Virus record (IMG/VR): IMGVR_UViG_3300048091_000012
Coordinates: 1 to 22,345 of that record
Strand: one strand, 5' to 3'
Length of the DNA: 22,345 nt
From: a virus
The stretch's first letter is position 1. Every line of letters starts with the position of its first letter. Positions 2,801-22,345 of the stretch are shown here, one piece after another. Both the position numbers and the translations under genes were made by a program. The notes under the pieces are model-generated. The model was not told the DNA's origin and ran no database searches. It saw only the letters and a program-made list of their open reading frames with translations.

Positions 2801-3411
2801 TAATACTCCGAGCCGTAGGCGGGTTCCATTGCTTGCGTGCTCTGATCCGTATCCGTAAGACGGCCCTGCTCCTCGACCTCTGCATAGAGGATTTCGTACT
2901 TGTTCTCGAAGCCGGTTACACGGTCATCAACGAAGTAGTCAGCAGCGAATGCGAGAGCACAATAGATCAGAAGGTCAGCAAGGACCGTGGTGAATAGATT
3001 GGTGTCGGTATCATTGACCAATGCAGGCTGTGCGCCGTAATAGATCAGGTAGACCGAGGTACCCAAGGGAACCGAGGGTTTGATGAGGTAGGACCCTGCG
3101 ACCCGGCAGTAATACCGGGGTTGACCAGATTCCTTAGGGAGACCGAGGAAGTGCGAAAGGTCCTTGTTGGACATCAGGACATCCCCGGAGTACATATGCT
3201 TCAGAGAGAGGAAGTCATCGGGGATGATGATCTCGTCCTCTACGGTCAGCGTGTTCCCTGTGGACACACTGATCTTCTCTTGGCCTGGAGTGCGCAAGGT
3301 GCGCTCAATCCGGGTCTGAGCCATTTGAATGAAGTCGTTTACGAGATCATCAGTTGCGTCATTACGGTTGAGCAGGCCTTTAACCTTCGCTCTCACTTGT
3401 GCGCGATTCAT
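2800..3411 (-). CDS. Head-tail adaptor-like protein
   Basis: A 203-aa protein beginning MNRAQVRAKVKGLLNRNDATDDLVNDFIQMAQTRIERTL (quoted in part: NDFIQMAQTRIERTLRTPG). This helical N-terminus followed by IIIPDDFLSLKHMY and a later YLIYYGAQPAL strand resembles head-to-tail adaptor proteins of SU10-like and related podoviruses, which join the portal to the nozzle. The position after the capsid gene and before a fibre supports a connector role. Its ATG lies inside the 3' end of the HNH gene (32-nt overlap), so translation may depend on ribosomes finishing that ORF. Family assignment is moderate; the structural role is more secure than the exact family. Confidence 0.7.
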   Translation of the reverse strand: MNRAQVRAKVKGLLNRNDATDDLVNDFIQMAQTRIERTLRTPGQEKISVSTGNTLTVEDEIIIPDDFLSLKHMYSGDVLMSNKDLSHFLGLPKESGQPRYYCRVAGSYLIKPSVPLGTSVYLIYYGAQPALVNDTDTNLFTTVLADLLIYCALAFAADYFVDDRVTGFENKYEILYAEVEEQGRLTDTDQSTQAMEPAYGSEY

Positions 3412-3838
3412 TGCGTTGTTTCCTAATCTGAGCTATAGCAGCCCCGATTAGTTTGAACTCTTCGGGGGTAAAGTTATCGTTACGGGCTGTGTTGCAGATG
3501 GCGCAGCAGGGGACCACATTGGTCTTTAGATGCCCTCGGGAGTTATCAAGGCGGTCTAGACCCCTGGCATCTTCGGTGGTGCCGCAGTAGGCACAGGGCC
3601 CTTGGGTCGTATCCTCAATGAAAGCCTCGGTCAGATCGTTAGAAAGGCTGCGCTTTGTGTCCCCTCTTCGGTAGTAGCCAAGCATCGTCTGAGCACGGTG
3701 AGCCTCTTTGTACAGCCGGACCTTAATTGCCGCGCATGGCTTACACAGTGAGTAGAGGCCATCGCGGTTTCTTGAATCAGGACTGAAGAACTCCTTCGTT
3801 GCTGGTTTGGATTCCCTGCACTTGCTGCAGGTCTTCAA
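3380..3838 (-). CDS. HNH endonuclease with N-terminal zinc ribbon (probable free-standing homing endonuclease)
   Basis: The 152-aa protein has two cysteine pairs at the N-terminus (C4/C7 and C32/C35), a zinc-ribbon-like module. The HNH module follows: CAYC at 82-85, GLDRLDNSRGH at 94-103 and NVVPCCAICNTARND at 107-121. This is the usual layout of phage HNH nucleases that cut double-stranded DNA and spread into related genomes. Its start overlaps the 98-aa ORF as ATGA, and its 3' end overlaps the adaptor gene by 32 nt. A homing role is inferred; an active site residue cannot be ruled intact without alignment. Confidence 0.88.
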   Translation of the reverse strand: MKTCSKCRESKPATKEFFSPDSRNRDGLYSLCKPCAAIKVRLYKEAHRAQTMLGYYRRGDTKRSLSNDLTEAFIEDTTQGPCAYCGTTEDARGLDRLDNSRGHLKTNVVPCCAICNTARNDNFTPEEFKLIGAAIAQIRKQRNESRTSESEG

Positions 3839-19576: not shown

Positions 19577-19591
19577 CTATAGGGACTATAG
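19577..19591. repeat. CTATAG-GGA-CTATAG palindrome, T7/SP6-promoter-like core
   Basis: Two copies of the self-complementary CTATAG flank a GGA. On the plus strand, ACTCTATAGGGACT resembles the initiation part of T7-type promoters (ACTCACTATAGGGA) with two bases missing. It is a single site with no second copy found, so it is only a candidate for a phage RNA polymerase promoter or an operator. Confidence 0.35.
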
Positions 19592-19592
19592 A

Positions 19593-19628
19593 AACCTTAG
19601 GGTTAACCTTAAGGAAAACCTTAGGAAT
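19593..19628. repeat. Three 12-bp tandem repeats (AACCTTAGG-type)
   Basis: The units AACCTTAGGGTT, AACCTTAAGGAA and AACCTTAGGAAT start at 19593, 19605 and 19617, an exact 12-bp period. The middle one contains the palindrome CCTTAAGG. T7-like phages carry arrays of short CCTAAAG repeats next to their terminal repeats, so this could mark a genome end or a replication/packaging signal. It could also be a set of protein-binding sites. Confidence 0.6.
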
Positions 19629-19762
19629 CCCCCCTCCCCCTTATAGCCCCTTTATTGGTCTCAATAATGGTCGATTAATGGTGAAACCATAGAAACCATA
19701 GGGGGTACATTAGGGGAAAAGTTGCACAACTTAGACGCACCCTGGCCGGAGCCTTAGGGGAC

Positions 19763-19993
19763 TTGGAGATTCCTAAAGAAATAGGGACGGGTTACTTTGA
19801 GGGACTAGGGGGTGTCCTAGGGGGTACCTTTGAAAACTTGGGAGCGTTGCTCTCACACAACAGGTCGAACAACAACAACAAGGCGAAACCTTTAGCGGCA
19901 TTTGTGAAAGCGATCCCGGAAGGCCCTAGGGGGTACATTCAGCCCCACGCAGCACGCGAGGTGAGCACGGAGCTAGGCGAGAGCCTGAGCTAA
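19763..19993 (+). CDS. Doubtful small ORF in the control region (76 aa)
   Basis: An open frame of 76 codons starts at a TTG preceded by TTAGGGGAC, a possible Shine-Dalgarno, and ends in TAA at 19993. The product would be Gly-rich at the start (YFEGLGGVLGGTFENLG), then NRSNNNNKAKPL, ending ELGESLS. The frame stays open upstream to 19685 with no ATG or GTG. The codons include many GGG and CTA, unlike neighbouring genes, and the AGGGGGTAC repeats run through it. I recognise no family. It may be a real early gene with a rare start, or a chance opening. Confidence 0.25.
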   Translation: MEIPKEIGTGYFEGLGGVLGGTFENLGALLSHNRSNNNNKAKPLAAFVKAIPEGPRGYIQPHAAREVSTELGESLS

Positions 19994-20544: not shown

Positions 20545-20573
20545 TTGCACACTACTGCACAACACGTTATAGT
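20545..20573 (+). promoter_or_regulatory. Putative sigma70 promoter before ardA
   Basis: TTGCAC (20545-20550), a 17-bp spacer, then TATAGT (20568-20573), a five-of-six match to the -10 consensus. The -35 box is weak (three of six). The spacer contains TGCACAAC (20556-20563), part of an 18-bp module shared with the leader of the 117-aa gene. Transcription from here would give ardA a leader of about 65 nt. Confidence 0.55.
20555..20572 (+). repeat. CTGCACAACAC..ATAG module, copy A
   Basis: This 18-bp segment, CTGCACAACACGTTATAG, matches copy B (21174-21191) at 15 of 18 positions. It overlaps the -10 box of the putative ardA promoter. The core TGCACAAC also occurs at 19723-19730 and 20228-20235, all outside confident genes, which suggests a shared regulatory site. 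Confidence 0.6.
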
Positions 20574-20645: not shown

Positions 20646-21167
20646 ATGGCCTACTTCGCTAACCCCTACGACACTACGACCAATGGTTTTTACTTCGAGT
20701 CTTTCGAAGAGTACACAGAGAAAGCAGCAGGCTTATTAAATAGCTCGGGTGCACCTGTTGAAGAGTTCATGATTGACTACCTTGATGGTGACGATGCGCA
20801 ACTCTTCGAGGCGTGCAAGGTAGACCAAAGCAACCTGGAGTTCTGGTTTGATGAGGTAGAGAGCCTTAAGGATCACGAGAAGGCTGCTTTGTTCTACTTG
20901 GTGTCAGTGAATGGTCAAGACATGGACGAAGCCTTGCAAAACCGTGGGGGTCACGTGCGCAACATTGACGACGTTATCCTGTTCCAGGGGGAACTTAAGG
21001 AAGCTGCGGAAGAACTGTTTGACGAGTGCTACCTGAGCGAGATTCCTGAGAACGTCCGCGCTTACATCGACTACGACTCTTTCGCCCAAGACTGCCGCCT
21101 GAATGGTGACATGTACGAATTCGAGTTCAATGGGGAAACCTGGACGTGCACCAACGCTAATTCGTAA
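20646..21167 (+). CDS. ardA: ArdA-like antirestriction protein
   Basis: The 173-aa protein is strongly acidic throughout, and its last third has the signature of ArdA proteins: EELFDECYLSEIPENVRAYIDYDSFAQDCRLNGD (about residues 122-155, quoted in part: YIDYDSFAQDCRLNGDMYEF). ArdA is a DNA mimic that binds type I restriction-modification enzymes and blocks cleavage of incoming DNA. Length matches the family (about 165-175 aa). The N-terminal domain is more diverged than the C-terminal. GGAGA lies 6 nt before the ATG. Its place as second gene in the rightward unit suits a protein needed soon after DNA entry. Confidence 0.9.
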   Translation: MAYFANPYDTTTNGFYFESFEEYTEKAAGLLNSSGAPVEEFMIDYLDGDDAQLFEACKVDQSNLEFWFDEVESLKDHEKAALFYLVSVNGQDMDEALQNRGGHVRNIDDVILFQGELKEAAEELFDECYLSEIPENVRAYIDYDSFAQDCRLNGDMYEFEFNGETWTCTNANS

Positions 21168-21173
21168 GCCAAC

Positions 21174-21191
21174 CTGCACAACACACAATAG
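21174..21191 (+). repeat. CTGCACAACAC..ATAG module, copy B
   Basis: CTGCACAACACACAATAG begins 7 nt after the ardA stop and matches copy A at 15 of 18 positions. If ATAG is part of a -10 box as in copy A, transcription would begin about 21197-21199, at the first base pairs of the hammerhead ribozyme. That leaves it open whether the ribozyme acts on this transcript or on read-through from ardA. Confidence 0.6.
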
Positions 21192-21195
21192 AACA

Positions 21196-21253
21196 GGTCG
21201 AAACCCTCTAGGACACATGAGGGTCTGCGGGTAACGCCCGTACTGATGAGACC
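21196..21253 (+). ncRNA. Type II hammerhead ribozyme in the ardA-downstream intergenic region
   Basis: All parts of a type II hammerhead appear in order. Stem II: GGTC (21196-21199) pairs with GACC (21250-21253). Core: GAAA (21200-21203). Stem III: ACCCTC (21203-21208) pairs with GAGGGT (21219-21224) around a 10-nt loop. The cleavage triplet is GTC (21223-21225). Stem I: TGCGGG (21226-21231) pairs with CCCGTA (21237-21242), including one G-U pair. Core: CTGATGA (21243-21249). The G-C pair closing stem II next to the core and the A-U pair next to GAAA are the invariant ones. Self-cleavage would fall between 21225 and 21226. Stem II is only 4 bp, and the loop-loop contact cannot be seen, so activity is inferred. 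Confidence 0.9.
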
Positions 21254-21274
21254 AACGCAACCAAGGGGAACACA

Positions 21275-21628
21275 ATGAACATTGAAAACATCACCAAGCA
21301 TTACTTAGTCGCTGCTCTTTGGTCGTCCACGGATGAACATGGGGAACCCTTGGACGCAGTGTGCACCCTTGATGACGTTTCGCCTGAGTGCCTTGAGGAA
21401 GCCAAGCTTGATGTGATGGATTTCGTTATGAGCAACACACATCTGCTTAGTCTCTCAGGGCTCTCAGACGAACAAATCGGACATGACTTCTGGCTGACGC
21501 GGAATGGTCACGGTGCAGGCTTTTGGGATCGTGGTCTGGGTCAGGTTGGCGAAGCGCTCTCGAAGGCTAGCAAGGTGTACGGGGAAGTAGACCTGTATGC
21601 AGGCGATAACGGCTACATCTACAGCTAA
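21275..21628 (+). CDS. Conserved phage early protein with HDFWLTRNGHGAGFWDR motif (117 aa)
   Basis: The protein starts MNIENITKHYLVAALWSSTDEHGEPL, continues with LDDVSPECLEEAKLDVMDFV, and carries GHDFWLTRNGHGAGFWDRGLG at about residues 69-89 (quoted in part: FWLTRNGHGAGFWDRG), ending LYAGDNGYIYS. I recognise this as a family found in early regions of many phages and some plasmids, with no known function. The dense W/H/G/D motif suggests a conserved binding or catalytic surface. The hammerhead ribozyme ends 21 nt before its ATG, and AAGGGGAAC is its Shine-Dalgarno. Association with ardA suggests a takeover or anti-defence role, but that is a guess. Confidence 0.85.
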   Translation: MNIENITKHYLVAALWSSTDEHGEPLDAVCTLDDVSPECLEEAKLDVMDFVMSNTHLLSLSGLSDEQIGHDFWLTRNGHGAGFWDRGLGQVGEALSKASKVYGEVDLYAGDNGYIYS

Positions 21629-22079: not shown

Positions 22080-22276
22080 TGAGACCCTCTGTTCGCCCAG
22101 TAACCCAAGCGCTCGAAGCATACTCGCGGGCCATCAATCCAACGCCTACACTGATACATGATCTAACCAGGGCGTTGGCTGAGGAACTAGCTGGAACCTT
22201 GGGAGGGACCGTAGAGATACGGCTCCCTGGAAACATTCGGATCATTCGACAACATAGCTCAAACGAGAAAGCCTAG
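22079..22276 (+). CDS. Small ORF at the end of the rightward operon (65 aa), function unknown
   Basis: The product begins MRPSVRPVTQALEAYSRAIN and contains LTRALAEELAGTLGGTVEIRLPGN, a helix then a beta strand. It is translationally coupled to the previous ORF by a TAATG overlap. Its TAG lies inside the left arm of the terminator hairpin. No family is recognised. Confidence 0.65.
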   Translation: MRPSVRPVTQALEAYSRAINPTPTLIHDLTRALAEELAGTLGGTVEIRLPGNIRIIRQHSSNEKA

Positions 22277-22293
22277 GGATTCCCCTGGGTTTT
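22272..22293 (+). terminator. Intrinsic terminator of the rightward operon
   Basis: CCTAGGG (22272-22278) pairs with CCCTGGG (22283-22289) across an ATTC loop, giving seven pairs with one T-G wobble, followed directly by TTTT and a T-rich stretch. The stem overlaps the stop codon of the 65-aa ORF, so termination coincides with the end of translation. The last 52 nt of the window show no gene that I can support. Confidence 0.65.
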
Positions 22294-22345
22294 GTCGTTT
22301 GGGTTACATTACGTGCGCATTACCTATCACAATAATTGACCTAAC

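Follow-up and report, generated by a model that had tools for sequence, protein, structure and literature searches.

A type II hammerhead ribozyme between ardA and a phrog_1915 gene of a viral contig is probably an intercistronic RNA cutter

Introduction

Why would a phage operon carry a self-cleaving RNA between two of its genes? Hammerhead ribozymes cleave themselves in an Mg2+-dependent reaction that yields one product with a 2',3'-cyclic phosphate and another with a 5'-OH. The role of the bacterial and phage members has been an open question since 2011, and it is raised by a stretch of viral DNA of 22,345 nucleotides (IMG/VR record IMGVR_UViG_3300048091_000012, positions 1 to 22,345; hereafter the window), in which a hammerhead lies between ardA and a phrog_1915 gene. 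The idea that such elements split messages and their link to ardA were both published in 2011 (Perreault et al., PMC3088659); that paper describes the association with ardA in Agrobacterium and Legionella and reports in vivo cleavage of the ardA-flanking hammerheads of A. tumefaciens. A sequence-only reading of the window had proposed a type II hammerhead in an early operon, cutting the message between the two genes and leaving a protective hairpin on both new ends.

Results

The genes and signals around the element, all on the + strand, have the layout of an operon. A promoter-like site, TTGCAC-N17-TATAGT (20546-20573; the consensus scan matched TGCACA-16-TATAGT), lies 5' of ardA, which encodes an antirestriction protein of 173 aa (20646-21167; Pfam PF07275, E 1.9e-10; phrog_2059, E 8.1e-9). 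Downstream of the ribozyme, a Shine-Dalgarno-like AAGGGGA (21263-21269) precedes the phrog_1915 gene (21275-21628; E 1.3e-27), whose 117-aa product belongs to the 'GHDFWLTRNGHGAGFWDRG' family of unknown function and has many phage relatives. A terminator-like hairpin is found at the operon end (22262-22299; -24.1 kcal/mol, z -5.4). These matches bear out the neighbourhood given by the sequence-only reading, with ArdA upstream and a conserved gene downstream; of its 'early operon', the operon layout is visible and 'early' is plausible. The terminase is at most 38% identical over its length to those of named phages, and the portal is of the SU10 type. Short imperfect direct repeats (CCTAGGGGGTACMTT, ACYATAGAAACC) are clustered at 19585-19939, in the region that separates the structural genes from the + strand operon, and are possibly a regulatory or origin sequence.

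The element itself occupies positions 21196-21253. The 5' strand of stem II, GGUC (21196-21199), pairs with GACC (21250-21253), and the core GAA (G12 A13 A14; 21200-21202) leads into the stem III hairpin (21203-21224), in which ACCCUC (21203-21208) and GAGGGU (21219-21224) enclose a 10-nt loop. From the hammerhead core geometry, cleavage is predicted between C21225 (C17) and U21226, in agreement with the position proposed earlier. The 17-nt stem I hairpin follows (21226-21242), with six base pairs between UGCGGG (21226-21231) and CCCGUA (21237-21242) and the loop UAACG, and the core CUGAUGA (21243-21249) completes the element. Every component named in the sequence-only reading was thus located. 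The invariant core CUGANGA ... GAAA, the A15.1-U16.1 pair and an NUH cleavage triplet are all present; stems I and III are closed by loops and stem II is open, as in type II. Minimum free energy folding gives the secondary structure of a hammerhead (-22.9 kcal/mol, z -2.5). Judged by its core, stem order, predicted fold and the conservation described below, the element is a genuine hammerhead of type II, as had been claimed, and adds a member to a known kind.

In a local search, the Rfam model RF02276 (Hammerhead_II) matched the element with 29.8 bits (E 2.1e-4). The curated gathering score of this model is 37 bits, so at that threshold Rfam yields no match in the window, and default annotation is silent on the element; the covariance search suggested with the sequence-only reading therefore gives a match, at a score below the cut-off. 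A motif scanner that demanded the core, the A15.1-U16.1 pair, H17 and three helices found no hammerhead in reversed and shuffled control sequence. From 300 Mb of sequence produced by a first-order Markov model of the window, the scanner returned three loose type II matches, none of them as strong or with stems as long as the window ribozyme, which corresponds to about 0.0004 loose matches expected per window.

Relatives of the junction were collected from viral contigs via both flanking proteins. Nine homologous hammerheads (eight distinct) could be aligned, and the core was unbroken in all of them. All three helices were kept: standard pairs occupied 128 of 128 stem cells in the eight distinct homologues, against 28-48% in slid controls, and 3 of the 16 pairs had changed on both sides, in stems I and III. 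The pairs of stem II were invariant in this close set and variable in a wider alignment of 44 subtype sequences (A3). Hammerheads tolerate any base at core position 7, and here it was U or A; the cleavage triplet was GUC, or GUA in locus L008. The expectation that relatives would keep the core with covarying stems was thus confirmed. It is hence close to negligible that the window element is an inactive chance look-alike: its Rfam score under the gathering cut-off would fit that reading, but a low score is common to the whole subtype, the chance expectation is about 0.0004 loose matches per window, and the compensatory changes already contradict it. A small ORF of 10 codons that starts at the AUG of CUGAUGA and overlaps the start of the gene was rejected as not conserved, because L004, L017, L018 and L020 have CUGAAGA.

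Departures from the intact form were seen at other loci. The hammerheads of L024 (3985-4042) and L028 (3902-3959) are intact except that stem II (GGCC/GACC) has a C-A mismatch with no compensating change. In L095 (2499-2590), CUGAUGA of a hammerhead of the same subtype is interrupted between C and U by a hairpin-forming insert of about 29 nt, and this copy is either broken or conditionally folded. In L055, the phrog_1915 gene lies between two altered-core hammerheads (2456-2519 and 3372-3434), with CUGAUGU and with an additional U behind CUGAUGA.

Pattern scans of viral contigs yielded 358 distinct hammerheads with flanks, 340 of them distinct by sequence, and the type II members fell cleanly into two classes by stem II length. 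Those with a 3-bp stem II mostly have a stem I hairpin of 21-24 nt, and where the loop has at least 4 nt, pairing of loop I with the 3' tail is possible in 90% (22% with shuffled tails). In the class with a stem II of at least 4 bp, the stem I hairpin is 17 nt long in 159 cases; these hairpins (6 bp, five-base loop) begin the loop with U in 154, have A in the middle in 123 and end it with G in 121. An A stands just before the ribozyme in 148 members of this class and just after it in 127. Loops shorter than 4 nt were found in 125 members with a 4-bp stem II, and in the 49 with longer loops the pseudoknot is possible in 29% versus 18% when shuffled; the pseudoknot is largely absent from this class. 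The window ribozyme agrees with the second class at every one of these points, with A21195 and A21254 on its flanks, its loop U-A-A-C-G being the subtype signature U-N-A-N-G, and its loop is too short for the loop I/3'-tail pseudoknot of the published type II consensus.

We add here that the window hammerhead, by its sequence features, is a member of a no-pseudoknot subtype that the Rfam model misses. At its cut-off, Rfam found no hammerhead in any of the 20 loci fetched by the pattern of this class. Our own covariance model R1, built from 44 sequences of the subtype with the window sequence among them, scores the window ribozyme at 65.3 bits and also recovers subtype hammerheads outside its building set. 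This subtype description accounts for default Rfam annotation passing over many phage hammerheads. The loop I/3'-tail pseudoknot itself was published in 2011 (Perreault et al., PMC3088659), and parts of the no-pseudoknot class may have been seen previously, since that work mentions non-pseudoknot contacts in a supplementary figure. A wide spread of the subtype in bacterial chromosomes was rejected: a tighter pattern gave only 3 matches in 84,980 genomes, and among 190 genomes of the class of L299, R1 and RF02276 both matched the same single genome.

Hammerheads of the other strand order were found at homologous junctions. In L005/L006 (ardA 80% and phrog_1915 75% identical to those of the window), the ardA-phrog_1915 junction carries two type I hammerheads, one of which weakly matches Rfam HH9, on either side of an extra 42-codon ORF. 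The genes upstream of the type II hammerhead in L022 and of the type I hammerhead in L302 are homologous, with 89% identity. Hammerhead pairs that differ in type number 45 by homology of the downstream genes and 11 by homology of the upstream genes, many of them sharing members, so that these are not independent counts. The upstream product is closed by stem III in both types, and a hairpin on the downstream product is found in type II alone; in L005/L006 and L302 the downstream RNA would start with an unpaired strand. Because homologous junctions carry either type, the downstream 5' hairpin is not the conserved feature. What is retained is the predicted cut, with its 5'-OH and an upstream end capped by stem III. 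Swapping of whole ribozyme classes at similar locations has already been recognised (PMC10085705), and the type II/type I exchange carries that principle over to permuted ribozymes at homologous junctions. Just 5' of the first type I hammerhead in L005/L006, positions 3556-3588 hold a possible leader ORF of 10 codons whose Shine-Dalgarno sequence is good, and this leader also precedes the type I hammerhead of L302, beside a different gene.

Among the phage hammerheads distinct by sequence (340), the median distance from the upstream stop codon to the ribozyme was 2 nt for type II and 0 nt for type I, and that from the ribozyme to the next start codon 22 and 26 nt, respectively, with genes of at least 80 aa taken from mechanical ORFs rather than curated genes. 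In the window, the ardA stop lies 28 nt before the ribozyme and the start codon 21 nt after it. It is a further addition of this work that phage hammerheads occupy the gap between the upstream stop codon and the ribosome-binding site of the next gene. Single contigs hold up to seven copies (some 6-7), one ahead of each gene. In L146 (8400-11320), seven type II hammerheads lie within 3 kb, each of them before a gene, and one of these genes is a clear ArdA (PF07275, E 3.9e-34) with hammerheads on both flanks.

Outside the relatives of the window, every one of the nine independent pattern-fetched contigs with an ardA-like gene had it next to a hammerhead, against a background of about 20% of genes in such loci. 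When Pfam was run on six of these nine genes, two were above the cut-off, one just below and three too divergent; the calls in L235, L261 and L275 came from an iterative HMM, with no Pfam match. The window hammerhead directly adjoins its ardA gene (PF07275) and in this respect belongs with the ardA-linked hammerheads of PMC3088659.

Two copies of CTGCACAACAC bracket ardA: the first (CTGCACAACAC..ATAG, 20555-20572) forms direct repeat D5 with the second (21174-21191), a conserved leader of the ribozyme. The promoter-like sequence TTGCAC(A)..CTGCACAACACG[TC]TATAGTTCATCCC is kept in L002, L004, L017, L018 and L020. An SP6-like phage RNA-polymerase promoter in the leader ('TGCACAACACACAATAG') was considered and dropped, with just two copies in the window, of which the one upstream of ardA is a better fit to a sigma-70-like promoter. 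The slot between the repeats differs in content between relatives, holding ardA in the window and L002-L004, another ArdA-like gene in L017, DUF7249 in L018, no ORF of at least 25 aa in L020 and nothing in L021 and L219, while leader and ribozyme are kept. In L004, ardA and the ribozyme are kept and the next gene is different. Over all loci, 44/165 were homologous on the upstream side versus 46/124 beyond the next gene. Hammerheads as general synteny break points were rejected on this weak trend, and a general cassette-boundary role is not established, because synteny is only slightly more broken upstream than further downstream.

On predicted cutting, the unpaired probability of the ribosome-binding site rose from 0.557 to 0.593 for type II, and it rose equally in shuffled controls; the ribozyme thus has no predicted effect on accessibility of this site beyond that of shuffled sequence. 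Masking of the site by the uncut ribozyme was rejected on these grounds, and masking of translation is not supported, because the predicted accessibility is independent of the ribozyme.

Discussion

We consider it roughly two-thirds probable that the type II hammerhead is a built-in intercistronic cutter, the most likely benefit being independent decay and translation of two messages. The operon would be transcribed from the promoter-like site to the terminator-like hairpin, and the ribozyme would fold co-transcriptionally as the polymerase passes from ardA to phrog_1915 and then cut itself after C21225. By known hammerhead chemistry, a 2',3'-cyclic phosphate would be left on the ardA RNA, whose last structure would be the stem III hairpin; the phrog_1915 RNA would start with a 5'-OH, 49 nt before the start codon. 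Such a 5'-OH would be a poor entry for 5'-monophosphate-dependent decay, and the hairpin with the cyclic phosphate would block 3' exonucleases, so that the two messages could decay and be expressed separately. In the early mRNA of phage T7, RNase III sites likewise lead to cutting of a polycistronic message between genes with hairpin-bearing ends; that processing differs in using a protein enzyme and leaving 5'-phosphate and 3'-OH ends.

The complete core and three stems, with predicted pairing kept at 100% at homologous junctions, argue for this cutter. Its type changes between II and I at homologous junctions while the cutter stays; it fills the gap between genes, in up to seven copies ahead of genes, and adjoins ardA in 9/9 contigs. 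The reported in vivo cleavage of the A. tumefaciens hammerheads (PMC3088659) and the roughly twofold gain in mRNA from RiboJ, a hammerhead-based leader, in E. coli (PMC6206723) also speak for it. Against it, some relatives lack the ribozyme (L012; L007 and L010 with a plain hairpin), cores are defective at several loci (L095, L055), accessibility of the ribosome-binding site shows no predicted effect beyond that in shuffled controls, and the ardA-like calls in L235, L261 and L275 have no Pfam match. The message splitting put forward in the sequence-only reading thus remains the best reading, with a predicted cut, and repeats the 2011 proposal for ardA-flanking hammerheads (PMC3088659). The claim that both ends need a protective hairpin is weakened: the upstream stem III cap is kept, and the downstream hairpin is missing from the type I forms of L005/L006 and L302.

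The cut might instead matter mainly for the downstream gene, as an insulator that gives a uniform short leader whatever the upstream gene, as RiboJ (PMC6206723) does in engineered circuits. The ribozyme stays while the slot between the CTGCACAACAC repeats changes its content, and its distance to the start codon is fixed across both topologies. We nevertheless regard this as unlikely, since L004 combines the same ardA with a different downstream gene, synteny is just slightly more broken upstream (44/165 vs 46/124 homologous), and cutting brings no ribozyme-specific gain in accessibility. Conditional control, with cleavage modulated by translation of the upstream gene, a ligand or a protein, appears improbable. 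The upstream stop codon directly borders the ribozyme in most phages, which would place a ribosome at termination over the ribozyme's 5' strand, and regulated cleavage in phages is also raised in PMC3088659; but the ardA stop of the window is 28 nt upstream, beyond the reach of a ribosome, and the loops are short and conserved, with no aptamer-like extension. It is very improbable that the ribozyme hitch-hikes with cassette-exchange repeats as a selfish or recombination module whose cutting brings the phage no benefit. The slot is bracketed by repeat copies, and L021 and L219 resemble a repeat-to-repeat deletion; however, stem-preserving changes with intact cores at homologous junctions, a position tuned to stop and start codons and independent replacement by the other topology indicate selection on cutting.

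Type II hammerheads of bacteria and prophages (RF02276 and PMC3088659) have the same core as the window ribozyme, the same strand order and cleavage after GUC and are likewise intergenic in phage operons, including beside ardA. In their model and consensus, stem II is short and loop I forms a pseudoknot with the 3' tail, whereas the window ribozyme has a 4-bp stem II, no pseudoknot and a 17-nt stem I hairpin with a U-N-A-N-G loop, and scores under the Rfam cut-off. The same source describes a triple array around ardA in A. tumefaciens, which cleaves in E. coli, and a hammerhead upstream of ardA in Legionella, with mRNA processing proposed; the window differs in its single copy, downstream of ardA, on a viral contig and with predicted cleavage. 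Hammerheads of the haloviruses HF1/HF2, ahead of early genes and likewise just upstream of the start codon, are described there with a variant core and an archaeal host, in contrast to the canonical core of the window. RiboJ (PMC6206723) is also a leader hammerhead that removes upstream sequence and leaves a 5'-OH product; it was engineered from the sTRSV hammerhead with an added hairpin, unlike the window ribozyme.

The odds appear about even that phage type II hammerheads comprise two fixed architectures, with the window kind common in viral metagenomes, invisible to Rfam and using a different tertiary contact for high speed, and that type II/type I exchange at homologous junctions shows selection on the cut and the stem III cap rather than on topology. 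Homologous junctions occupied by a hammerhead of either type, by a plain hairpin or by nothing form a natural experiment on product features, in which a 5'-OH near the start codon and the upstream stem III cap are conserved and the 5' hairpin is not. The ardA/phrog_1915 junction of L012 has neither a ribozyme nor another structure, and in L007 and L010 a plain long hairpin replaces the hammerhead. L025 has a hairpin upstream of phrog_1915 and no hammerhead there. The three share a conserved hairpin, CGCTAGATAAACCGGATGNATGCCC..GGCCGTCTGGTT..TCTAGCG (-31 to -35 kcal/mol; L007 3510-3660, L010 3510-3660, L025 about 2880-3000). It matches no Rfam family, and a known ribozyme was rejected on that account; the sole new pattern match, in L382, was discarded as a likely coincidence within coding sequence. 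The hairpin may be a site of nuclease processing or a ribozyme of another kind.
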